Below, in pieces: positions 21,955 through 56,476 of a DNA stretch of 64,000 nucleotides; the first letter of the stretch is position 1; each line of letters opens with the position of its first letter. Under the pieces are notes generated by a model. It was not told where the DNA came from. It saw nothing but the letters and a program-made list of their open reading frames with translations, and ran no database searches. The position numbers were made by a program, and so were the translations under genes. Origin of the DNA: Paracamarosporium sp. OC-R06-R3 (lineage: Eukaryota; Ascomycota; Dothideomycetes; Pleosporales; Didymosphaeriaceae). Location of the stretch: contig JACVRA010000189.1 of NCBI GenBank assembly GCA_019828545.1, positions 62,001-126,000 on the forward strand, in the 5' to 3' direction.

Positions 21955-23138
21955 ATGTCTATGTCCGGCGGTCTGGCGTTGTTGGCGTCCGTCGTCTTTG
22001 AAGTCGGCGCTCTTTCCAACCCCGCTGATACTCGTCTTCGATTAGCAGCTACGGCTGCTAGTCTGTACTCTCTTTTCCTCTTCATTCAAAGTCCACCGGC
22101 AGGAACTTTAATGACTGTCTGGCCTATGGGCATGAATATTTACAGTCAAATTCAACGATGCATAAACAATCTTTGGTTCAGAGATCCTCATGAGTTTGCA
22201 CGAAAGGGCGATGCAGCGGCAACAGGCAGGCTCAGCACTACCGATGCTCTAGATGTTTCTCTAACAGTCCGCGGCCTTGGATGGTTCGTCACCATACATT
22301 TCCCCGTTGCGTTGTTCACTGTCATGCTAACAGAGGTACCAGGAGCTTCCAAGCGAAGCGGATTCCCGAACATCGCCTCGCCTCGAGCTCCCGATTTCGG
22401 TTCGCAATTTCGCAGTTGTCGGGTGCTCTGCTGCGCTATATTGCCTTGGACTTCGGTATTTCGCTCGCCAACGTGACACTCACGACGCTTGACGGCACTT
22501 CTCTTTTCTTGCGCCTTGCCCTGGGTGCACTCATGGTACTCTACGTTCGCTGGGTAATGGACATTCCTTTCCGCATATTTTCAGCCATTACCGTTCTTGC
22601 GGGAATCTACGCTCCTGCTGATTGGCCGCCCCTTTTCGGTCGATGGGAAGATGCCTTCACCGTCCGCCGTTTCTGGTCACATAACTGGCACCAGGTCATG
22701 AGTCAGCTTCAAGGGCCGGCAGTGCAGGCCGGAGTCCGCAAGCTGGGTATAAGCAAAAGAAGTTATCTGGGTCATTGGGCCATGGTTTGCGGAAACTTCT
22801 TCATAGCGTTCTTGGACCATGCTTATGGCCGAATCCTCGCAGGAGGTGATGTTATGGACGACTTTTACATGTTCGCTGCCCAGCCCATAGCTATCTGGAT
22901 CGAGGACACGGTCAGAGACGTGGCAGTGGCATGCGGTCTATTGGATAAACACCACAGATCCGGTCTGGAGATTTCCTTAGGCTACATATGGGTAGCAGCC
23001 TTTGAGTGCTGGACGTTTCTCGATTTCATGAACGGTGGGATACGCTTGCGCGGCAACGTGCCTGCCGACACTCTGATTGAGCCTTGTTATGGCGTGAGCT
23101 TCATGACTCCGCTCTTGGAACGGTATTTTTCTTCGTAA
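21955..23138 (+). CDS. Wax-synthase-like membrane-bound O-acyltransferase
   Basis: There are two exons, 21955-22335 and 22416-23138, joined across an 80-bp GT-AG intron without shifting the frame (FTVMLTE to LSGALLRY). The product is 367 residues. It has several hydrophobic helices and the family's signature RRFWSHNWHQ (around residue 220), whose His is the likely catalytic residue of wax-synthase/MBOAT-like acyltransferases. Such enzymes in fungal clusters acylate a hydroxyl of a terpenoid or polyketide at the ER membrane. It is the left-most gene with an AflR-type element in its promoter, so I place it in the polyketide cluster. The substrate is unknown. Confidence 0.8.
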
Positions 23139-25186: not shown

Positions 25187-26338
25187 CTACCCTCTTAGTA
25201 ATATCTGCACCACCTTCAATGAGATCTCGTGCAGCCGCCGACGGAACTCGTCGTGGACGCGCGCTGCCATGGTATCTGACAAGAGCAGCGAGTCGCTGGA
25301 TGTGTACATCTGGTCGGCGGGGCCTTGCCTCACCCCACCGGAGCAGTGCCCGCCCGTCACAACCTGAACGTGACCCGAAAAGCGTTCGATTATGTCGTTG
25401 AGCCGGTAGAGGTCGTCCAGCATAGTTTCCGCAGCTACCACACTCTGTGCGTCGATCTCGCTTCCTCCGCCGCCCATACAAAGGGGAGGGCTTGCTCGTG
25501 AAAAATCCAGTAGATCTAATGGTGAAAACCCGTCTGAAACACTGCTGGCCGAGCTGCCACTCGATCGGACAGGTGCTGTGTTGTCTACAGCGCGTGTACA
25601 CCAGGTGAGAACCCTGGAGATGACCAGTGCCACAATGGTGAGCAGATTTTCGTTGTTTGCGCAGGAACATTTTAATATGCTACTCAAGGGCCCGGTGAGT
25701 TCCTTGTTTAGCGAAATGGCCGCTTCGAGTGTGAATGGTGGAAGGTTTTTGGCGGCACTGGTCGGTCGCATGGAAGATGCAGATGCATCGGCCAGACTGG
25801 ATTGCCCGAGGAGGTCTAGTGCAAAACTCAGGCATCCGGATTCGTGGTGACAGCCGTGCCCCTCTGGCTCGTTCTGCAAGTAATTCCATGCAGGGTCTCC
25901 AGTGTCTTTGTGGGTCAGAAAGTCCGCCAGTTCGGTGTCGGTGTGCAGGGAAGATGTGGTGGTATCAAAGAGGTTTTGGGGGGGATGTGTCGAGACTTCT
26001 GCCAGGCTCATGTCGAGTTGCCGTGCTGAGATGGTGGTTGGGAGGTTGCGAGGAGCTTCATCCAGCATTGAGCTGATCGAAGACGCGCGATTCTTGTCTG
26101 TGGTCACGCTGTCTACCCTCGAATTCCGTCTCTTGTTGCTCTTGAGCTTTCCATCGGCGCTATTCTGTGCTGAAGGGCGTCCAGTACGTTTGGAGGTGCG
26201 GTAAACACAAGCGATGCCGCGAGTAACACACCGCGAACAGCTTGGTTTTTCTTTGCTGCACCGCACCTTTGCAGCGGAACAGGTCTTACAGCTGTCGCAT
26301 AGCTTGACGGCGTTGTGGGTCGCGGTAAAATTGGTCAT
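25187..26338 (-). CDS. AflR-like Zn2Cys6 transcription factor
   Basis: Starting at the Met at 26338 the protein is 383 residues; the frame is open to 26554, with further ATGs at 26365 and 26521. The binuclear zinc cluster is complete at residues 17-44 (CxxCx6Cx6CxxCx6C, SCKTCSAAKVRCSKEKPSC) and is followed by YRTSKRTGRP, the AflR-type linker. The C-terminal part (LNDIIERFSGHVQ; DEFRRRLHEISLKVVQILLR) resembles the AflR C-terminal domain. Members such as AflR and MdpE activate aromatic polyketide clusters by binding TCG-N5-CGA. Six neighbouring genes carry CGG-N3-CCG sites, so it is the likely local activator. Its own promoter shows no such element. Confidence 0.85.
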   Translation of the reverse strand: MTNFTATHNAVKLCDSCKTCSAAKVRCSKEKPSCSRCVTRGIACVYRTSKRTGRPSAQNSADGKLKSNKRRNSRVDSVTTDKNRASSISSMLDEAPRNLPTTISARQLDMSLAEVSTHPPQNLFDTTTSSLHTDTELADFLTHKDTGDPAWNYLQNEPEGHGCHHESGCLSFALDLLGQSSLADASASSMRPTSAAKNLPPFTLEAAISLNKELTGPLSSILKCSCANNENLLTIVALVISRVLTWCTRAVDNTAPVRSSGSSASSVSDGFSPLDLLDFSRASPPLCMGGGGSEIDAQSVVAAETMLDDLYRLNDIIERFSGHVQVVTGGHCSGGVRQGPADQMYTSSDSLLLSDTMAARVHDEFRRRLHEISLKVVQILLRG

Positions 26339-28322
26339 CGGGACTGATGGCTCCAAAAGTTTCATAGACGGATGTTCCAGAGTCTCGGAATTAGAGATGC
26401 ACCCGCCTTGATATAAAGTATGCGACCGTGACAGCGTTAGCGAGTAGCTTTGTGCCCCCACACAATCCAGCTTTGTGGCGTTCACGACCGGCTGGCCTGT
26501 GTTCAGGCAGACGAGTCTCATCACGGTCGAGCCCTTACTCGTGCGGGTTTCCAAATTAGTCGCCTAATAAGCTGGAGTCGCTAGTAGGGGTCAAGGCGAA
26601 TCAGGCGAGCGTCACGACAATGACGTAAAAACGGCTTAGGATCAGCGAGTCCGTTACTCCAATCATACACGCGCGATCCGTACAATCCTGGGTCACATCA
26701 GGGCTAATTAGAGGACTAAAATCTTAACAAGCAATACACTCGCTAGCGACTAGCGATCGTGGCTTTCATCCTCTCACACCGCTGGAACACCGGTCCGCCC
26801 CGCTCCGCTAGCGATCCTATTCAACGTACGTACGAAACGTGGCATGGTCGAACCACCCGTGATAAGGATGTTCCCGCGATAAGGATGCCTAACACCCACG
26901 TGCCTTAAATTGCGGTTCTCTGATCCACCGGAAGTATCAAACCCTTTGAAAGGAATGTCTTCGTGTATTTCTCAAGCGATCCTTATCACCGTTAGATACC
27001 TACCCGATTGTAACGTAGGTATACGGGCTTTACGCCACATAGATAACCTTGCATACAATACAGCGTTTCCCACACCGAGTTCGTCTGTGCACTGCTAGCC
27101 GGTCCCAATTCGTTCACCCTACCACCTTGATGGTCTTGACTTCCGTCACTTTTGGGTCGTCCCACTTCTCGCTCGCTAGGAAAAAACGACAAGAATCCAG
27201 CAGCTTTCAGAACACGAGGTCGCAGCTGTATTGCCCAGCCGTATCAATGCTACCAAGAAATCTATATTCAGATACGATTATCTTAGCTGTAAATTTCGAG
27301 AGCATCTAAGATATCCAAAATGTGGATAGTGTCTACTAGGCAAAACGTCTCTAGTGCCCTTAACGAAAGCTTCTAAGTGTTTACACTTGTAGGAAGCACA
27401 CCAGGCACGCAGGGTCCAGGCCGCGGGTCCAGGCCGCGTGTCAATGAACGGTGACCAGTAATATTGCTCAACGCGGCCTCTGCTACGCTAAGGTTACCGC
27501 CCCTGGCCTCAGGGATCCCGCCCCTTGCGTTAGGAATCCCGCCTCATGCGGTCAGCAATCAGCCCCATGCATGTCGTAAGAACTCCGCCTCAGAATCCTA
27601 CGGCTCAACGGAGTACTAGGAAAGCTTAACATAAGGTCAGCTACGCCTAAAGAAGGCAGCAAGTGTGGGGAGGCATACGCCAGCATGAGATGCTGCAAGA
27701 ACAGCTCCGCCGACTTTGCGGTCGGACCATAGCTGAATAACCGCCTGAGAACGTGCGCAGGAGATGCAAAGGATCGGGGGGAAGTCATGAGGCCGAAGAG
27801 GTGCAGGCCGCGGAGTTTCCATGCATACATATGCATTCCCTCAACCTCAAAACAAAGCATTGCTTTACATAACGAGCATCACAGTGGATCGAACCACCAC
27901 GGGGAAAACTCAGATATCACGACATCAAGTGCCCCATCTGATCTCGCATCATCCACCCTTGTCAAGCGGCTGGGTGGAACACTGAGCTTACGCTTGGGGC
28001 TGAAACAGAGAAAACGCGAGCTCCTGCAAATGTTAACTCTTACCCATACGGATGGGTCTCGAGGGTGCAAGGGTGACACATGCACAGGTAAGGCATTTTA
28101 TGCTTGAATCGGATTACCGAAACACTAGAAGGCCCGAGTTTGGAGAGACTACGGACACGGTTAAAGTCGATCTCTCATCAGCGCTAGTCCAATCAGGGCG
28201 AGCGTGGCAGCTGGTCCCCGTCAAGGATAAAGCTTGTAGGTAGCTCAGGTGCAGGGCCTGATGATTCTGTCAGAATGTCTATTATGCTTGCTGTCCGGCA
28301 GTAAACATTGCTGTCAAGAATA
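26339..28322. other. 2-kb gene-free region with short degenerate repeats
   Basis: This is the divergent spacer between the AflR-like and bZIP regulators. Short repeats occur at 27411-27440 (GGGTCCAGGCCGC twice) and 27505-27560 (two diverged copies of a GGGATCCCGCCCCTTGCG-like unit). A T-arm-like GGTTCGATCC is present on the minus strand near 27893 but no tRNA can be folded around it. A TCGG-ATTA-CCGA palindrome lies at 28109-28120, 203 bp before the bZIP start. No gene is seen. Confidence 0.45.
28109..28120. promoter_or_regulatory. TCGG-N4-CCGA palindrome upstream of bZIP gene
   Basis: TCGGATTACCGA is a perfect inverted repeat with one base more spacing than the AflR-type sites in the other cluster promoters. 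It lies 203 bp upstream of the bZIP ATG. It may be a weak or variant site for the same regulator, or chance. Confidence 0.3.
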
Positions 28323-31493: not shown

Positions 31494-33238
31494 ATGTCGT
31501 TCCTTCAAGATACAGCTTTCGGCGCCATTATACGTTTATTCAGTGGTGGAAGGCTATTGGGATGGAAAGAGAATGTCGATGAAGCAACACGGTCACGATA
31601 CCTTGATGGATATGGCAGATCTGCCGAAACTCTATCGAGCTTGGAGGAGGAGGAAAAGGGGATCAAGTTGATTGAGTTTCTTCCAAATGACCCACAGGCA
31701 CGTTATCGAGATGGATTGTTGAAGAGAGATCTCGATTGCTGACGCTATATCTAGAACCCACGAAACTGGTCCTCAGGCAAAAAGATGTTTGTGGTGTTCG
31801 ATATCTGTCTATTGACTTTCTCCATCTACATTGGCTCCGCCATCTACTCAGCTGGCACCTACGAGGTCATGCAAGTCTTCGACGTTTCTCAGGTTGTCGC
31901 CACTCTTGGTCTCTCGCTCTACGTTGCTGGGTACGGTGTGGGCCCCATGATCTGGAGCCCCCTTTCCGAAGTGCCCTACTTTGGGCGAAACCCAATCTAT
32001 CTTGGGACATTGCTTGGGTTCGTGGGGTTCAACTTTGGTGTGGTCTATGCAAAGAATATTGGTATGCTACTGGCATTTCGTTTCCTCACAGGCTTCTTTG
32101 GAGGCCCGATCCTAGCCACTGGGGGCGCCAGTATATCGGACATGTACAGCCCACGCAAGCGAGTGTATCCATTAACCGTCTATGGTGTCGCAAACATCAT
32201 GGGTCCCGTGCTTGGTCCTGTAATCGGAGGCTTCGCGGTGCAAGAAAAATCGTGGAAGTGGCCAATCTGGATTCTCATCTGGCTATCTGGCTTCTGCTTA
32301 GCCTTTCTCTTCTTCACCTTCCCCGAGACATCGGCGGCCAATATTTTGTACCGCAGAACGTGTCGCCTACGGAAGTCGCAGCCTGTCCATGGCCCGAAGA
32401 TCACGTGTCGACCGGAGATAGAAGCTGAGATGATGACCCCATCCGATGGATTGAACATGATCCTGGTGGAACCATTTACACTGACTTTGGGTGAGCGAAT
32501 CGTGTTTTGCCTGAACTTATACCTCGCGATCGTGTATGCCGTGCTATACTGCTGGCTGGAATCTATTCCGTTGGCGTTCCACGAGGTTCGCGGTTTCAAC
32601 CTTGGCATCACTGGACTTTGTTACTTGGGCATTGCAGTCGGCGCTCTAATAACGCTGCCGATTTATTGCTGGTATAACTACAAATACGTTGAACATAGGT
32701 TCGATCATAACGATGACCTAAAGCCAGAGGTGAGTGGGAAGGCGGCCATCTCAACGACTCCTACACCAATGTTGATGACAATGACAGATCCGACTTGAAG
32801 GCGCATTAGTAGGAAGCTTCTTCCTTCCCATCTGCTTGTTCATGTTCGGTTGGACAGCAAGACCTGATGTCCACTGGATTGTACCTATCATAGGCACTAG
32901 CTTCTTCAGCATGGGCGCTCTGCTTGCGGTACGTCACCTTTAGGACATCATTTGCTTATCATAACTAATCCGTCTAGTTTATGTCTATTCTCAACTACCT
33001 TGGTGACGCGTACCCAGCCCACATCGCCTCGGTGTATGCTGGCAATGATCTATTCCGGTCTGCGTTTGGAGCTGGCTTCCCGCTTTTCGCGAATGCCATG
33101 TTTACCAAGCTCGGACTTGACTGGGGTAACAGTCTGCTCGGATTCATATCCCTTCTTTTCATCCCCGCTATGTTCTATCTATGGCTGTTTGGGGAAAGGA
33201 TTCGACACAAGAGCAAGAATGCCCGTCACGATCTTTAG
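31494..33238 (+). CDS. MFS transporter, multidrug/polyamine (DHA1) type
   Basis: Four exons, 31494-31697, 31755-32729, 32788-32928 and 32978-33238, give 526 residues. The introns are 57, 58 and 49 bp. The first begins with GC rather than GT (CAG/GCACGT), and only that junction restores the family's [14 protein letters not shown] motif; a GCTGAC branch-like sequence supports it. The N-terminal tail is cytosolic; then come 12 hydrophobic helices including the [14 protein letters not shown] motif and a [11 protein letters not shown] motif in TM5, typical of DHA1 drug/polyamine exporters. Its position and AflR-type element suggest export of the cluster's product. Confidence 0.88.
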
Positions 33239-38511: not shown

Positions 38512-39360
38512 TCAGGTGGGACCGGTCGAAGGCAGATAAGGATGCAGAAAAGGGAAGTAAAAACGAATGAGACCGTAGAAAATGCACCTTGGCGTTCCTG
38601 GAGGAAACTTAGCCTTCCCGTTTGCGTTGACGACACCGACGTTCTTTCCGTCCCATTTCGATGAGTCTTCACCCGAGACCTCTAACATCGCGGCAGCCAG
38701 GTCAGCATATGAGAGGAAGCTCTCTTCCTCGTCTAGGGTAAGCTTGTGACCCCTCTGAACATCTACCGACAGCCCGCCCGGCTTGATGTATATGGTTTGC
38801 AACCAATCCTCATGTGTCCGGAGATAGGCCTCGGCTACTTCCAAGTCGTCGTAGACGAAAGAACACGCTCTACGCATGATGGGTCTGAACCACGTCATAT
38901 TGCGGCTGAGATGATCGTCAACGGTGGCAGAGGAGAGAAGCACCAACTTTGGGGCTACAAAATCAATGGAGTCCGCCTTGAGCTTTTGCAAAGCTGTGAC
39001 GACACACCGAGCGAGGTTCTGACTGATTTTGCAACCAGGTACGTTGTCGTTTGTGCTGGCCAGAAGGAAGATGGAACGGCAGTTTTTGGAGCAGCGAGCT
39101 AGAAGGTCCACGTCGTCGATACTGCCCTCGAAGATTTCGACTTTCTTGCTGTCAAGAACTTCTGGGATTAGGCCGATGAGTTTCTTCTGGTTGCGGCAGT
39201 AGGCATTGATCTTGACATTGGGCATCTTGAGCAGCTGTCGGATGATTTCAGTACCACAGTTGCCTGTGGAACCGAAGACAGCATACGTTGGAACGTTGCT
39301 TCGAACATTTTGCGCTGTGCGCTGGCGGTCGTTGGCCTCTGCAGCACCAGATACGCCCAT
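38512..39360 (-). CDS. NmrA-type NAD(P)-binding oxidoreductase, AvfA/AflX-like
   Basis: From the Met at 39360 the protein has 282 residues. The start is chosen because it precedes the Rossmann domain; the frame is open to 39432. The Rossmann signature [19 protein letters not shown] (GxTGxxG) is followed by the atypical-SDR pattern [24 protein letters not shown], a Ser-rich strand [11 protein letters not shown], the [17 protein letters not shown] loop and the [11 protein letters not shown] helix. I recall close resemblance to AvfA/StcO or AflX-type proteins of aflatoxin, sterigmatocystin and anthraquinone clusters. An AflR-type palindrome lies 169 bp upstream. The exact reaction is not known. 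Confidence 0.83.
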
Positions 39361-39779
39361 CGTGAGGATTCGATAATAGCAGAGGAGTATGTGGTAAAGA
39401 GGAAAATAGCGTTGGCAGAATGTGATCGTCACACTAAACTGCTGCGATAACGAACCAGTCTATGCATGGACACTTTAAAAGCACCCAAAAATCACGCCAT
39501 GGATAGAGTACGCGTGGGGGGTGCGGACTCGGCCTCCGAGAGTACTATCACGTAAGTCGGAGCATGGTGCGTATTCGGACGTTAGGTCCCCCACCAATAT
39601 GCCTGATGGAGAAAGTGGTTTTTCGGACGAAAAGCATCGCCAAGAAAATTAATTAATGCCTAATAGATTACGCCTAATTTTCCTACAACTTTAGTACCCA
39701 GGCCTACGCTACTACTTTTGCCAAAACCCAAACCCATATGCCTAGCAAATCTTAATTGATACGCAATAAACGGCTTCGA
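39361..39779. other. NmrA promoter region bordering the PKS remnant
   Basis: This region holds the promoter of the NmrA-type gene with the palindrome at 39529. In an intact cluster it may have been a divergent promoter shared with the PKS, whose 5' half is missing here. Confidence 0.4.
39529..39539. promoter_or_regulatory. AflR-type palindrome upstream of NmrA-type gene
   Basis: TCGGCCTCCGA lies 169 bp before the ATG at 39360. It is TCG-N5-CGA; its reverse complement TCGGAGGCCGA fits TCGSWNNSCGR. The 5-base arms CTCGG/CCGAG are perfect. Confidence 0.55.
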
Positions 39780-49249: not shown

Positions 49250-51653
49250 CTAGCCATACAAAGTGCCCCTCGTACGCTCGGTGACTTGATTCTCATTGTG
49301 CAAGTGCTGCGTGACCTCCAGCGTCGTTAGGATATGGTTATGGTTAAGCTTCGAATCCTGGCGTGTAGCCATTAATCGTGCAATTTTGAGGATATTCTTG
49401 ATCTGGCGACCGTTCATATCCAAGCGCGCCAGCTCGTCCAACTGCTCGGTAGTGATAACGTGTTCCTGTGGAGAATTGTCCAAGAAATTCTTCCACACCG
49501 TGCGGCGCGAGGCGACAGAGAGCCCTTTGTAATTGAGCGAGATGTGGATGCGCGAGGCAAAGGCAGGGTCGAAGGTGTTGACACGGTTGGTGGTCAGGAA
49601 CATGGTGCCTTCAAAGTATTCAAGGACTAAACGATGTACAACAGATCAGCTCAGGTTGCGAAGAAATATTGAAAATAGTACTCACCTCGCAAGAAGATGG
49701 ACACGAGCTTATTCCTCTCCAGCTCATGCAGCGAGCGCTCTTCCAGAAATACATCTGCCTCATCAAGTAATACGACGCTGTGCCACCGCGTGCACATCTC
49801 CAAAATGTCGTGGAGCTTTGACTCGATTCTGCGCGAGTCCAAGCCCAGGTCGCCCGCGCTCATCATATACAGAGGCACCTTCATCTCTTCAGCGACGGAT
49901 TCAGCGGTGAGTGTTTTGCCTACGCCAGGTGGACCACAGAGCAAGATTATCATCCCCCGGCCCTTGCCCTCAATCACATCGTCGAAAGTAGTACGGTGCT
50001 TCTGTTGTGACTCGGTAAACCCGAGTATGAGTTCCTTCTGGTTCTTAGGCAAGACCAAGCGGTCAAAAGCGTCCTTCTGCCATTCAATCTCTTTAACACA
50101 GTTGACAAAGAAGTTGAGCCACATCTTCGTCTTCAGGCTGTAGCCTCTCAGGACGGGTGTACAGATGAGCTTTTGCTCTGTCGTTAGCGGTGGTCGCTTC
50201 GCGGCATCCTCTTCGTCCGCAAAATGGCCGTCCAAAGGCATACCGTCCTCGAAGTCGTCGTAGCCGGGTTCTGTATAAATAGTGTCTTCCTCGGAATCCT
50301 CAGGTCCGGGCGGTCCACGATCATCTTTGTCTCCGTTGAGGTGATCAACATCCTTGTTGGGGAAACGCGTTGTGTAGATGGCATGACCAGGATCGAAACG
50401 ATTCCAGCCGTAAGTATCGATTACAATCTGAAAATGTAAGCATGAGAACGTCTTTGTTCAGAGCGAGCTAAAGCTTGAAGACTGTGGCTGCAGTATGGGG
50501 ATCTGAGGATGGGGCTTACTCGGTCTTTGATTTGATACTTGTTCTTGGTTCCAAACTCTCCCCAATGCCATGCCACACCATCGTACGCCTTGTAGTTGAC
50601 ACCAGCTAGTTCCTCAGCCTTAGAACCTCGCTCAATGAGCCTCGTCTTCACGTCTTCTGCTTTTGGATGGAATTCGATGGGAAACGCTCGCAGTTGAGTG
50701 ATAGGACGTGTTCCAATGTAGGAAGCGATGGAGGTGTTGATCTGAGTGAAGCCGAATGCAGTCCCGTCCCAATCGACGTGCTTGCCAACAACCCAGAAGC
50801 ATGGATCTCCTCCAGCATCCTGGCCATAGCGAGTACTCTGCAGTTGCATAGCCGTCTCTTGACCATCCTGACGCGTGTAGATGATCGATCCTGGCTGAAA
50901 GAGGGTCCAGAGATATTCCCATGTCATGACGCGTTTATTTTTCATGTCTTGGGATGTGTCGATGAGGTCCTTGAACTCCTTCACTAGTACGCCCAGCAAA
51001 AGGTCCGCATGCTCCTTGGTCGTTCGCTCCTCTTCGGTGGAATCGCCGAGTTTGGAGATGGCAGCCTGCAGCTCCGCCCACCGGTGGACCAGAGGCTGGA
51101 ACTTGCCAGAAAACTCGAGGCGATTCAAATCAGCTGTGATGCCAGGGTAATCTTTCAGCACGACGCCCAACAGCTTCTTGAGCAGAGGGCTCTGGACAAC
51201 GATGGAGTGCATAGCGAGGACTTTGGAGGGATCACCGTAGACCTTTACATGGCGGACCAGCAGCGCCCATTTGGCAGTCTTGTCGTTCTCTGCCGCAACA
51301 CCCAAATCATCTGGCATCGTGTCCTGCCATTGGTAGCGACCTTTCTTGTCTTCTTTGCCGGAATACAGGTCCTTGACGCCCGTCTTCATGCCTGGCTCGC
51401 ATGGGTCTGGATCCTCGGATTTATCGGCGTCCTTTTCAGCCGTTCCATTCGCAGAGTCAGTAGTAGCTTTGATGCCGTTGGGTTTCGGGGTCTGGGGCTC
51501 GTCAGAGGCCTCGGAAGACGAGGCTGAGCCAGCCGAGGCGGCCATGTCGATCGGAGGGAGCGGCGGTAGAAAGCACTCAAAGGGCGAAGGCGTGTTCCTA
51601 ATGATGGTGCGTTGAGTGTACAGTCCACGCCCACGACCGCGCCCGCGATACAT
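49250..51653 (-). CDS. Fungal AAA ATPase with long N-terminal domain (DUF7025 type)
   Basis: Three exons, 51653-50520, 50427-49686 and 49626-49250, are joined across introns of 92 and 59 bp and give 750 residues. The N-terminus is basic and Gly/Arg-rich (MYRGRGRGRG) and a later Met (51545) is an alternative start. Residues about 80-380 match the N-terminal domain often annotated DUF7025 (WALLVRHVKVYGDP, TWEYLWTLFQPGSIIYT). The AAA module has Walker A GPPGVGKT (543-550), Walker B VVLLDEAD (596-602) and the TTNRVNTFDPAFASRIH sensor/arginine-finger region. Such proteins are common in fungi, resemble BCS1/katanin-type ATPases and have unknown substrates. Confidence 0.9.
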
Positions 51654-52413
51654 ATTGTTGTGTTGTTGGCCTGAGGCTGACGCAAACGCTTACACAACAA
51701 ACCCGATTGACCAGTCGAAGTGAAGGCAGGCTAGCGAGGGTGAAGGAGGGCTGTTATATCTCCAGCCAGCCTTGCTGCCTGGTTCGCCGGCTCATAAGCG
51801 GGCCAAAGAGCGCAGGATAGACGTTCGGGTGTGGTCAGCAAGGCGAGGCTGTGGCGTCCATTATATGCAGCTTGTCATGTTGCAGCTTGTCGTGTGGCAG
51901 CGCAGCGCGGTACGACCCGAGAAAAGCAACCATGGCGGCAGGCACCCTCCTCATCACCCGAGTCGGTAGCTGTAGTCGATGCTCGCACTGCCTGCGCCGA
52001 TGCGCAAGGCACCAGCAGGAGAGGTCACGGGGAACGGAAGAGCCACAGCCTCGTGCGGTGAACGGCTTGGGACGACACCGCCGTTCACGCAGCGAAGAGA
52101 AGAATGGAACGAGCTGTCATGTCATGGTGTATATGGGACGCGTCGCCCAACAACCAGTGAACAAAGGCTGCTGCTCCGCGCCTGCCCGTGTAGACATTAG
52201 CCAGCCGCGCCACAGCCGCCACAGCCGCCACAGCCGCCACAGGCCGTGGCGGTGCAGCCCCGCGGTTGGCGATATCGGTCTCGGTCCGTCGGTTCTGCCC
52301 CGCTAAGAAAAACATTGGGACCATTTTTGCTCTGCTGAGCCAGGGCAACACTATCTGCATTTAAGCCCTCGCTGTCGCTGTCCGCAACTCGCTGAGGACG
52401 GCCACGCACAATC
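51654..52413. other. Divergent promoter region with a 9-bp repeat
   Basis: This spacer lies between the AAA ATPase and the homoserine kinase-AIR synthase gene. A GC-rich array of four CCACAGCCG units lies at about 52210-52246. No gene is seen. Confidence 0.5.
52210..52246 (+). repeat. Four copies of a 9-bp GC-rich unit
   Basis: CCACAGCCG is repeated four times in tandem about 170-200 bp upstream of the homoserine kinase-AIR synthase ATG. It is a minisatellite in the promoter region. Confidence 0.8.
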
Positions 52414-54549
52414 ATGACGACCATCATCAGAGTCCCCTGCTCCTCGGCCAACATTGGTCCCGGCTTCGACGTTATCGGGCTCGCGCTTTCCATGTACCTC
52501 GAGGTGCAACTCACAGTCACAAAGCAGGAGTCATCGTCGCATTCGCTCAATTGCCGCATCACCTACGACGGAGTCAACGCTGAGTCGGTCCCCCTCGTCG
52601 CCGAAGACAATCTCATCACCCGCACCGCCGTCTACGTCCTCCGCTGCCATGGCATCCGCGCATTCCCCGCCGAGACACACGTTCATGTCAAGAACCCCAT
52701 CCCGCTCGGGCGGGGGCTGGGCTCGTCTGCCGCCGCCATCGTGGCCGGTGTCAACCTGGCAAACGAAGTGGGCAATCTGCAGCTGTCCAAAGCTCGCATG
52801 CTCGACTTCTGTCTCATGGAGGAGCGCCATCCGGACAACGTGGCAGCAGCGCTGTACGGAGGCTTCGTCGGCACATACCTCAACGAACTGTCTCCTGAAG
52901 ACCTCGATCGCATGGAGATTCCTCTCAGTGAGGTGCTGCCCGAGCCCGCAGGAGGCAAGGACACCGGACTGCAACCGCCGCAGCCTCCCAGGGACATCGG
53001 CCACTATACCAAGTACAAGTGGTCGTCGGAAATAAAATGCATATGCGTAATTCCACAGTTCGAGGTCTCCACCGCAAAGGCTCGTGAGGTACTTCCCGAA
53101 AGTTACTCTCGCAAAGACATCGTCTTCAACATGCAAAGGTTAGCCGTCTTGACCACAGCGCTCGGACAGTCACCCCCGGACCCCAGCATGATCTACACCG
53201 CCATGCAGGACAAGATTCACCAGCCGTACCGCAGAGGTCTTATCCCCGGTCTCACCGAGATCCTGCAGTCCGTCACCCCGCAATCGCACCCTGGTCTGCT
53301 AGGCATCTGCCTGTCAGGTGCGGGTCCTACTATACTGGCATTGGCCACAAGCAACTTTGAATCGATAGCAGACCACCTGTTGGCCGAGTTTAAGAAGGAA
53401 GGCATCACGTGCGACTGGAAGTTGCTCGAGCTCGCCGAGGAAGGAACAACCGTCGAACAGCCATCGACTGGCCCATCTCGGCAAGTGGAAGAGGCGCTCA
53501 CGTATGCATCGTCCGGCGTCAGCATCGACGCAGGTAACGACCTCGTCAAGGGAATCAAGGCCCTGACAGCGGCCACCAGGCGTCCTGGTGCGGACGGCAA
53601 GATTGGTGGCTTCGGCGGTCTTCTCGATCTGGAAGCTGCTGGCTACACTGAGGCGCCAATCCTCGTTGGTGCAATCGACGGAATCGGTACCAAGGTCAAG
53701 ATTGCGTTCGAGATGGGCAAACACGATACCGTGGGCATCGATCTGGTCGCCATGAATGTCAACGACCTGGTTGTGCAGGGTGCCGAACCACTCATGTTCC
53801 TCGACTACTACGCGTGCAGCAAGCTGAGCGTTGATAGCGCCATCAAATTCGTCGAGGGCGTCGCGAACGGCTGTCGACAATCAGGCGCCGCTCTCGTTGG
53901 TGGCGAGACTGCAGAGATGCCCGGCATATACCAGCAGGGCGAATACGACGCTGGAGGCTGCGCAATCGGTGCTATCAAGAAAGGTGCCACCATCCTGCCC
54001 GATACGGCTGCTATGGCTCCGGGTGATGTGCTCCTAGGTCTCGCATCCAGCGGCGTGCACTCCAACGGCTTTTCCCTGGTGCGTAAGATTATCGAGAAGA
54101 AGGGGCTCTCGTTCCACGACACGGCGCCTTGGAGCACCAACGAGACTGTGGGCGGTAGCCTCCTCACGCCGACGCGCATCTACGTCAAGCCTCTGCTGGC
54201 TGCGACTCGCAAGGGCCTCATCAAGGGCATGGCTCACATCACTGGCGGTGGTCTCCTGGAGAACATCCCTCGTATGCTGCCCGACGGCCTTGCGGCAGAG
54301 CTCGACGCGAAGACGTGGCCTGTCCTCGACGTGTTCAAATGGCTCAAGGAAGCCGGGCGGCTGGAGGACGCAGAGTTCTGCCGCACGTTCAACACCGGGC
54401 TGGGCATGGTGCTCGTGGTGAGCGAGGACAAGGTTCGCAGCACGACGGAGACACTACAGGAGCATGGCGAGCAGGTGTACAGAATAGGAAGGCTGACAAA
54501 GAGGGCGGAGGAGGAGTGCATTGTGCAGAACATGGATGTCTGGCGATGA
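52414..54549 (+). CDS. Fused homoserine kinase - AIR synthase (PurM) bifunctional protein
   Basis: This uninterrupted 711-codon ORF encodes two complete enzymes. Residues 1-348 are homoserine kinase of the GHMP family: VPCSSANIGPGFDVIGLAL, the ATP loop NPIPLGRGLGSSAAA (94-108), the CLSGAGPTILAL motif and a normal C-terminus (WKLLELAEEGTTV). A 13-residue linker (QPSTGPSRQVEEA) leads into residues 362-711, AIR synthase: YASSGVSIDAG, GGFGGLLDL, DGIGTKVKIA, GGETAEMPGIY, SSGVHSNGFSLVRK, TGGGLLENIPRML and NTGLGMVLVV. The first makes O-phosphohomoserine for threonine; the second makes aminoimidazole ribotide for purines. All recognisable motifs are intact. The PurM half resembles that of the fungal ADE5,7 (GARS-AIRS) protein. 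Confidence 0.93.
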   Translation: MTTIIRVPCSSANIGPGFDVIGLALSMYLEVQLTVTKQESSSHSLNCRITYDGVNAESVPLVAEDNLITRTAVYVLRCHGIRAFPAETHVHVKNPIPLGRGLGSSAAAIVAGVNLANEVGNLQLSKARMLDFCLMEERHPDNVAAALYGGFVGTYLNELSPEDLDRMEIPLSEVLPEPAGGKDTGLQPPQPPRDIGHYTKYKWSSEIKCICVIPQFEVSTAKAREVLPESYSRKDIVFNMQRLAVLTTALGQSPPDPSMIYTAMQDKIHQPYRRGLIPGLTEILQSVTPQSHPGLLGICLSGAGPTILALATSNFESIADHLLAEFKKEGITCDWKLLELAEEGTTVEQPSTGPSRQVEEALTYASSGVSIDAGNDLVKGIKALTAATRRPGADGKIGGFGGLLDLEAAGYTEAPILVGAIDGIGTKVKIAFEMGKHDTVGIDLVAMNVNDLVVQGAEPLMFLDYYACSKLSVDSAIKFVEGVANGCRQSGAALVGGETAEMPGIYQQGEYDAGGCAIGAIKKGATILPDTAAMAPGDVLLGLASSGVHSNGFSLVRKIIEKKGLSFHDTAPWSTNETVGGSLLTPTRIYVKPLLAATRKGLIKGMAHITGGGLLENIPRMLPDGLAAELDAKTWPVLDVFKWLKEAGRLEDAEFCRTFNTGLGMVLVVSEDKVRSTTETLQEHGEQVYRIGRLTKRAEEECIVQNMDVWR

Positions 54550-55690: not shown

Positions 55691-56476
55691 ATGTCCGGCG
55701 TCCCCTCCAACACCACCACCGCCGCGCACCCCGCCCCGCCGCACAAGGAGTCGACAGCCTCGCACCCGCCGCCCTCGAAGCCCGACCCCACGCTCGCCGG
55801 CTCCCACAATGCCCCCCAAAGAGGACTCTCCGCCGCCGGTCCCGCCGCCGCCGCCGAACTCTCCAGTCTTACGCTAAGGCTCAAGTCCTCGCTGCGCCAG
55901 TTCCCCGACTTCCCCAGCCCGGGCATCCTCTTCGAAGACATCATGCCGCTGTTTGCGGACCCCGCGCTGCACGAGGCCCTCATCCACGCCCTGGCGCTGC
56001 ACGTATCGCAGAACTTCGACACGCCCGATGTCGTCGTCGGCCTGGATGCGCGCGGGTTCCTGTTCGGGCCCAGCCTGGCGCTGCGCCTGGGCGCGGGGTT
56101 TGCCCCGGTCCGCAAGCAGGGCAAGTTGCCCGGCCCGTGTGAGACGGCCGCCTACGAGAAGGAGTACGGCAGCGACTTTTTCCAGATGCAGCGCGATGCC
56201 GTCAAGCCGGGGCAGAAGGTGCTGGTCGTGGACGATATCATTGCTACTGGTGAGTACGACCAAGTCACGTCAAACACCAACACAGATATTCAGGGAGGCC
56301 TGGGCGAACATGGCTAACAATATACAGGCGGCTCCGCGGCAGCAGCAGGCTCGCTCGTCATGAAGCTCGGCGGCACGCTCCTGGGCTACGTCTTCATCCT
56401 CGAACTCGACTTCCTCAAGGGCCGCGACAAGCTCGAGGCCCCCGTGTACACGCTTCTTTCTAGCCAGGAGAAGTAG
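55691..56476 (+). CDS. Adenine phosphoribosyltransferase
   Basis: Two exons, 55691-56249 and 56328-56476, are joined across a 78-bp intron with a GCTAAC branch-like sequence and give 235 residues. The N-terminal 58 residues are Pro/Ala/Ser-rich and probably disordered. The enzyme follows: LKSSLRQFPDFPSPGILFEDI, VVGLDARGFLFGP, the flexible-loop region RKQGKLPGP and the PRPP site VLVVDDIIATGGSAAAA, which spans the splice junction, then YVFILELDFLKGRDKL. It converts adenine and PRPP to AMP (purine salvage) in the cytosol. It lies 1.1 kb downstream of the AIR synthase fusion, so two purine genes are neighbours. Confidence 0.93.

Follow-up and report, generated by a model that had tools for sequence, protein, structure and literature searches.

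A homoserine kinase–AIR synthase fusion protein of Dothideomycetes, probably derived from a divided ADE5,7 gene

AIR synthase (AIRS, PurM) carries out the fifth step of purine synthesis and, by textbook, constitutes the second half of ADE5,7 in fungi, whereas homoserine kinase (HSK, THR1) belongs to the threonine pathway. The window analysed here, a stretch of 64,000 nucleotides from Paracamarosporium sp. OC-R06-R3, carries one reading frame in which the two enzymes follow each other. This raises the question of whether the frame encodes a genuine protein, how its halves came together, and whether their union serves a purpose. We put the probability at roughly 85% that it encodes a bifunctional HSK-AIRS protein, the only source of HSK and AIRS found in the host, which arose by the splitting of ADE5,7 and a local joining of its AIRS half to THR1. 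Within this account, the two activities, the local origin, the single event and an advantage limited to co-expression are the parts that we infer. The frame is composed as follows:

Window 52414..54549, plus strand: intronless HSK-AIRS fusion ORF of 711 codons (translation, ORF list, NCBIfam and Pfam matches; same domains in 118 of the 120 matches listed)
53461..53496, plus strand: interdomain linker, residues 350-361, variable and of low predicted confidence (junction alignment; pLDDT below 50 at residues 352-359)
52414..53460, plus strand: homoserine kinase half, residues 1-349 (TIGR00191, 348.1 bits; junction alignment; 120 of 123 near-invariant residues)
53497..54546, plus strand: AIR synthase (PurM) half, residues 362-711 (TIGR00878, 418.7 bits; 64% identity to ADE5,7; 117 of 123 near-invariant residues)

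The frame translates into 711 residues followed by a stop, with zero internal stops, and is embedded in a stop-to-stop frame of 717 amino acids; the ORF list of the window holds no comparable frame on the opposite strand over 52414-54549. The NCBIfam profile thrB (TIGR00191) aligns with residues 5-349 over positions 3-303 of its 304 and far exceeds its cut-off of 168.25 bits, while purM (TIGR00878, cut-off 236.35 bits) aligns with residues 362-696 over positions 1-331 of 332. The Pfam domains GHMP_kinases_N, AIRS and AIRS_C all score above their cut-offs, and GHMP_kinases_C lies barely at threshold (21.1 bits, cut-off 21). Third-position GC is equal across the two halves (0.73). By sequence, the fusion is confirmed as a genuine two-domain protein consisting of a complete HSK, a linker and a complete AIRS, and the intact single frame of the preliminary description stands, with its 711 codons and full-length matches to both profiles.

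The junction was compared in an alignment of 26 fusions, 13 HSKs and 13 ADE5,7 proteins. The HSK half ends approximately where the chain of a stand-alone fungal HSK normally ends, the AIRS half opens at the same motif as AIRS in fungal ADE5,7, and the form of the junction is identical across the 26 aligned fusions. Larger sets were used for measurements: 117 fusions, taken from the first 121 proteins with the query included and excluding P0090 (a run-on gene model) and the short P0101, P0112 and P0114; and 117 HSKs, from which P0255, P0264 and P0274 were excluded by length and which include one fusion fragment, P0307 (a partial Aureobasidium protein). Beyond the conserved core of HSK, the chain continues for 2-7 residues in 104 of the 117 HSK-set proteins and for 11-21 in 12, and in one it stops earlier. 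Among the 117 fusions, a length was obtained for 106, the pattern giving none for the other 11; in these 106, the core is separated by 9-27 residues, with a median of 13, from the motif at which AIRS starts. The linker is also the variable part in sequence, with a mean majority-residue share of 0.48, compared to 0.88 in HSK and 0.84 in AIRS. Among window bases 53381-53620, the sole ATG is out of frame, so that AIRS lacks its own ATG in this stretch and a separate AIRS product from a nearby internal start is unlikely.

The same architecture recurs widely. In a search of approximately 5.8 billion proteins, PF00288, PF00586 and PF02769 occur together in 118 of the 120 best matches listed, both AIRS domains occur in all 120, and 116 of the 120 pass a length filter of 680-900 amino acids; judged from these counts of domains and lengths, a chance joining of HSK and AIRS is excluded. 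Listed matches that span the whole query share 95% to 68% identity with it, the closest being that of Paraphaeosphaeria sporulosa (95%), which would make the source of the window probably a close relative within Didymosphaeriaceae. The eight names that were looked up represent eight orders of Dothideomycetes, namely Pleosporales, Gloniales, Mytilinidiales, Aulographales, Botryosphaeriales, Dothideales, Myriangiales and Mycosphaerellales, and every named match that we recognised among the best 120 is a dothideomycete. The proposal to look for the same two-domain order in other Dothideomycetes has thus been borne out across the eight orders and the 118 listed matches.

These data also bear on the idea that an assembly or gene-model artefact joined two genes, which is very improbable. 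Errors of this kind do occur in the region, as the Bipolaris maydis gene model P0090 runs the fusion into the following adenine phosphoribosyltransferase (APRT) gene, but both halves are present in 118 of 120 listed matches from many species, the frame is held through a variable linker, 53381-53620 holds no in-frame ATG, and no other AIRS or HSK was found in the host genome. The assembly error that had been named at the outset as a possible refutation is therefore rejected.

The separate forms were also looked for. A search with a GARS+AIRS query returned no recognised dothideomycete name among its best 120 matches, many of which are nameless. Taxonomy look-up placed ADE5,7 among these 120 in Coniocybo-, Geoglosso-, Lichino- and Sordariomycetes, and further rows presumably belong to Leotio-, Eurotio- and Pezizomycetes; Caeruleum and Thelocarpon, both with ADE5,7 rows, were looked up and lie outside Dothideomycetes. 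Two named animal proteins are also among these matches. The search with HSK alone, in which length limits barred full fusions, gave only partial Aureobasidium fusions (P0274 and P0307) as recognised dothideomycete names among its best 120, many of them again nameless, and one shortened fusion (P0264) is present as well; Cirrosporium, from the same list, was looked up and lies outside Dothideomycetes. As a separate observation, 17 of the 120 stand-alone fungal homoserine kinase rows bear the name 'Trihydroxynaphthalene reductase', which looks like a propagated naming error.

Both halves appear sound. Near-invariant positions were defined as columns with one residue in at least 98% of the reference proteins, which were the 117 HSKs and 118 ADE5,7 proteins (excluding the animal rows P0126 and P0224). 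The window protein retains 120 of 123 such residues of HSK, including the G-L-G-S-S loop and with L73V, G106A and V109I as exceptions, and 117 of 123 of AIRS; its nine departures are slight, for example V in place of L or A in place of G. Across the 117 fusions, 116 of the 123 HSK columns and 113 of the 123 AIRS columns are retained in at least 95% of the proteins. Because nearly all near-invariant residues of the unfused relatives are kept, both halves are probably active. The HSK half would most likely phosphorylate homoserine, and the AIRS half would convert FGAM to AIR.

An AlphaFold model built from 67 sequences reached a mean pLDDT of 88 and a pTM of 0.57, with the linker (residues 352-359) below 50; the domains are thus predicted mostly firmly, but not their mutual arrangement. 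The predicted AIRS half adopts the PurM fold (TM 0.94 and rmsd 1.7 against E. coli PurM, 1cli_A), and the predicted HSK half resembles known HSK structures with TM values of 0.79-0.84. In a first model, with few AIRS relatives in the alignment, much of residues 390-514 had remained below 50. This region improved in a second model to which ADE5,7 rows were added, while HSK confidence dropped in loops 14-17 and 99-103; in that second alignment, the GARS parts of ADE5,7 may be placed against HSK.

What, then, became of ADE5,7 in this fungus? The host genome (43.09 Mb in 337 contigs) was searched with profiles and contains one purM and one thrB match, both within the fusion ORF. AIRS_C occurs elsewhere twice in a single 1437-amino-acid frame on contig C123, presumably FGAM synthase, and in one further match below the cut-off. 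For GARS_N there is a single match, on contig C258, and for GARS_A one match above the cut-off on the same contig and three weak ones below it. They mark the following gene:

Contig C258, approximately 91070-92434, minus strand: stand-alone GARS gene of 430 amino acids with one 69-base intron near its 3' end (purD, 546 bits)

The purD match of this gene covers profile positions 2-424 of 425. No significant AIRS match was detected within 9 kb around it, and no significant GARS match in the window; the ADE5,7 order of GARS and AIRS in one polypeptide was not encountered. When the intact ADE5,7 of Chaenotheca gracillima (P0122, 787 amino acids) was used as a query, it matched two host loci only: its residues 1-431 align with the two exons on C258 and its residues 423-787 with the fusion, at 64% identity. 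Pairwise alignment places residues 1-430 of ADE5,7 opposite the separate GARS and residues 432-787 opposite the AIRS half of the fusion. In these alignments ADE5,7 is cut at the domain border, with little or nothing lost.

Since the fusion holds the only HSK and AIRS found while GARS is encoded separately on C258, we read the locus as the outcome of an ADE5,7 split and a change of partner, in which AIRS, by its sequence likeness, has exchanged GARS for HSK. The stand-alone GARS is observed in this host, and the split of ADE5,7 seems to extend across Dothideomycetes. Of the two origins proposed in the preliminary description, a split and rearranged ADE5,7 fits these findings; the joining of a PurM copy to THR1 fails, because a second AIRS was not found in the host genome. 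The search for a separate ADE5,7, suggested there as a check, yielded no intact gene, only the P0122 matches divided between C258 and the fusion.

A related explanation would leave ADE5,7 in place and have the AIRS half added to it, either as a second copy or by horizontal transfer of PurM from bacteria. Bacterial PurM does match well (5vk4, 367 bits), but the AIRS half is the sole AIRS found in the host genome, shares 64% identity with the AIRS half of a fungal ADE5,7, and starts at the GARS-AIRS border. On the present genome assembly, this explanation is rejected as exceedingly improbable.

Other fungi were compared for the positions of the two genes. Nine species are named in both the ADE5,7 and the HSK lists (best 120 each, compared by eye). 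In six of the nine, Chaenotheca gracillima, Xylogone sp., Phlyctema vagabunda, Glutinoglossum americanum, Venustampulla echinocandica and Diplocarpon coronariae, the longest contig on record for THR1 has the same length as that for ADE5,7, and the two seem to be one contig. One of these contigs measures 27,399 bases, one 197,642, and four more than 1.6 million, where sharing is less telling. In Diplocarpon coronariae, the locus tags PZA11_002542 (HSK) and PZA11_002543 (ADE5,7) are consecutive, which would make the genes adjacent if tags follow the contig. In the other three species (Sarea resinae, Xylona heveae and Coniochaeta ligniaria), the two genes are on contigs that differ in size. As contigs are shared in six of nine species and the tags of D. 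coronariae are consecutive, THR1 and ADE5,7 probably already lay close to each other when the fusion formed. Judging from contig sharing and tags, the fusion probably arose locally between these genes, and losing or moving the intervening GARS part would yield exactly the HSK-AIRS order.

We postulate an ancestral fungus in which THR1 lay beside or near a bifunctional ADE5,7 (GARS-AIRS). Early in Dothideomycetes, the GARS half would have been detached and would have survived as an independent gene at another locus; the AIRS half would have ended up in frame behind THR1. The two halves would fold as separate domains joined by a flexible linker, each catalysing its usual ATP-dependent reaction, and the present advantage, if any, would consist only of co-expression in a fixed ratio.

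Whether this happened once was addressed with trees. When HSK and AIRS were concatenated, the 22 fusions came out as a single clade apart from the 10 separate pairs, with support of 98/96 and in 99% of bootstrap trees. In an AIRS-only tree from which the animal rows were omitted and in which ADE5,7 rows were left untrimmed, the fusions are grouped at 88. An AIRS tree with two animal rows and trimmed ADE5,7 placed the ADE5,7 of Arthroderma (P0232) inside the fusions, without strong support. The animal rows (P0126 and P0224) had been crudely cut and were very long, P0224 especially, and were left out of later trees; P0232 was no longer among the fusions once they were omitted and ADE5,7 trimming was stopped.

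HSK-only trees look different and form the basis of the view that fusion took place repeatedly, or that some lineages later separated the halves, instead of one event at the base of Dothideomycetes. They mix fusions with stand-alone HSKs, without a single fusion group in any of 200 bootstrap trees (0%), and their starred branches require at least two changes. Enforcing one fusion group worsened the log-likelihood by 36-39, with AU p-values of 0.053 in the quick analysis, close to rejection of one group, and 0.028 in the careful analysis, which rejects it; the latter omitted P0277, P0324 and P0361, so that the sequence set changed together with the method. Against this stand the union of the fusions in the AIRS-only and concatenated trees and the shared form of the junction, and the deep branches of the HSK tree are short, which may explain the scatter. 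We consider more than one origin, or a reversal, improbable and retain a single fusion event as part of the main reading.

As to function, the fusion most likely carries out the normal HSK and AIRS reactions, supplied in a fixed ratio from one promoter, and it could in this way co-regulate threonine and purine synthesis. A stronger proposal is that the fusion is adaptive and couples threonine supply to purine synthesis through a fixed ratio, co-localisation or allosteric cross-talk. A conceivable route uses threonine aldolase to turn threonine into glycine, a substrate of GARS; an excerpt of a review (PMC7693651) reports that overexpression of threonine aldolase with threonine feeding increases glycine and riboflavin in Ashbya gossypii. 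The fusion is present in all eight orders looked up, with no intact separate form under the recognised dothideomycete names among the best 120 rows of each search, and a further purine gene, APRT, adjoins it. Persistence by itself is nevertheless weak support for adaptation, since two biosynthetic genes that each exist in one copy are not easily separated once fused. The linker varies in length and sequence, which argues against a rigid joint machine, and the model (pTM 0.57) lacks a firm domain-domain arrangement. As a whole, adaptive coupling is unlikely. Slightly less likely again is the idea that Dothideomycetes, by trading GARS for HSK, acquired at their origin and have kept ever since a functioning link that ties threonine, and through it glycine, to the purine pathway; the active sites would regulate each other, or HSK would be recruited to purine-enzyme assemblies. 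The link to AIR-derived thiamine that had been suggested for the fusion is doubtful: in fungi, pyridoxal phosphate and histidine (Thi5), and not AIR, are regarded as the precursors of the pyrimidine moiety of thiamine. Co-expression in a fixed ratio remains our preferred reading.

Compared to known systems, ADE5,7 is the source of both the AIRS half and the separate GARS, and it likewise carries AIRS C-terminally after a short linker. Its N-terminal partner is GARS, in contrast to the homoserine kinase of the fusion, whose host encodes GARS on another contig. Relative to stand-alone THR1, the fusion contains a complete HSK that matches TIGR00191 and lacks only three of the 123 near-invariant residues, but it extends beyond the normal C-terminus through the linker into AIRS. 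Animal GART (GARS-AIRS-GART) similarly contains AIRS within a multi-enzyme polypeptide; its partners are other enzymes of one pathway, whereas the partner here belongs to threonine synthesis. The closest precedent is SPE3-LYS9 (spermidine synthase-saccharopine reductase), described in an excerpt of PMC10051792 as fused in basidiomycetes, separate in ascomycetes and functional in Cryptococcus. It too appears to be a two-pathway enzyme fusion across a large fungal group, as the present fusion is across eight orders, but the enzymes are unrelated. For SPE3-LYS9, no case is known to us of an older bifunctional gene being split to provide a partner.

The fusion had been thought refutable if it proved common and already annotated. 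The class does carry it widely, and database annotation shows its domains, but no published description was found: one open-access library, searched by title and start of abstract, gave none for HSK-AIRS, and an excerpt of PMC9925542 contains no mention of homoserine. The domain layout is hence already on record, and what appears to be new is a lineage-wide bifunctional fusion formed by a change of partner. In databases, the fusion proteins are variously labelled homoserine kinase, cyclo-ligase-like or ADE1, and the fusion itself is a likely cause of these uneven names. A fungal class seems to have dismantled ADE5,7 and attached its AIRS to homoserine kinase, which makes HSK-AIRS a candidate molecular marker of Dothideomycetes and offers a natural test of whether enzyme fusions act as metabolic coupling or record old gene neighbourhoods. 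Dothideomycetes include many plant-associated species. Because the fusion carries two biosynthetic steps in one gene, a strain lacking it should depend on supplied threonine as well as on a source of purine.

The next identified gene downstream lies outside the fusion on the same strand and comprises two exons:

Window 55691..56476, plus strand: APRT gene of 235 amino acids with one apparent intron at 56250-56327 (NF002636; sequence and frame)

Its first-exon frame scores 152.9 bits with NF002636 (cut-off 125) and 151.1 bits with TIGR01090, below the cut-off of 185.85. The run-on model P0090 is probably an annotation error; as it spans both genes, the neighbourhood of fusion and APRT is retained in Bipolaris maydis.

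Elsewhere in the window, a Zn(II)2Cys6 regulator with an AflR domain (25190-26563, minus strand) is found near frames for an MFS protein (31755-32795), an NAD-binding/NmrA-like protein (38515-39459) and an MBOAT protein (22194-23135), which together may mark a secondary-metabolite cluster. The divergent upstream neighbour of the fusion (49654-51689, minus strand) consists of frames with DUF7025 and AAA ATPase domains, which are perhaps one gene.
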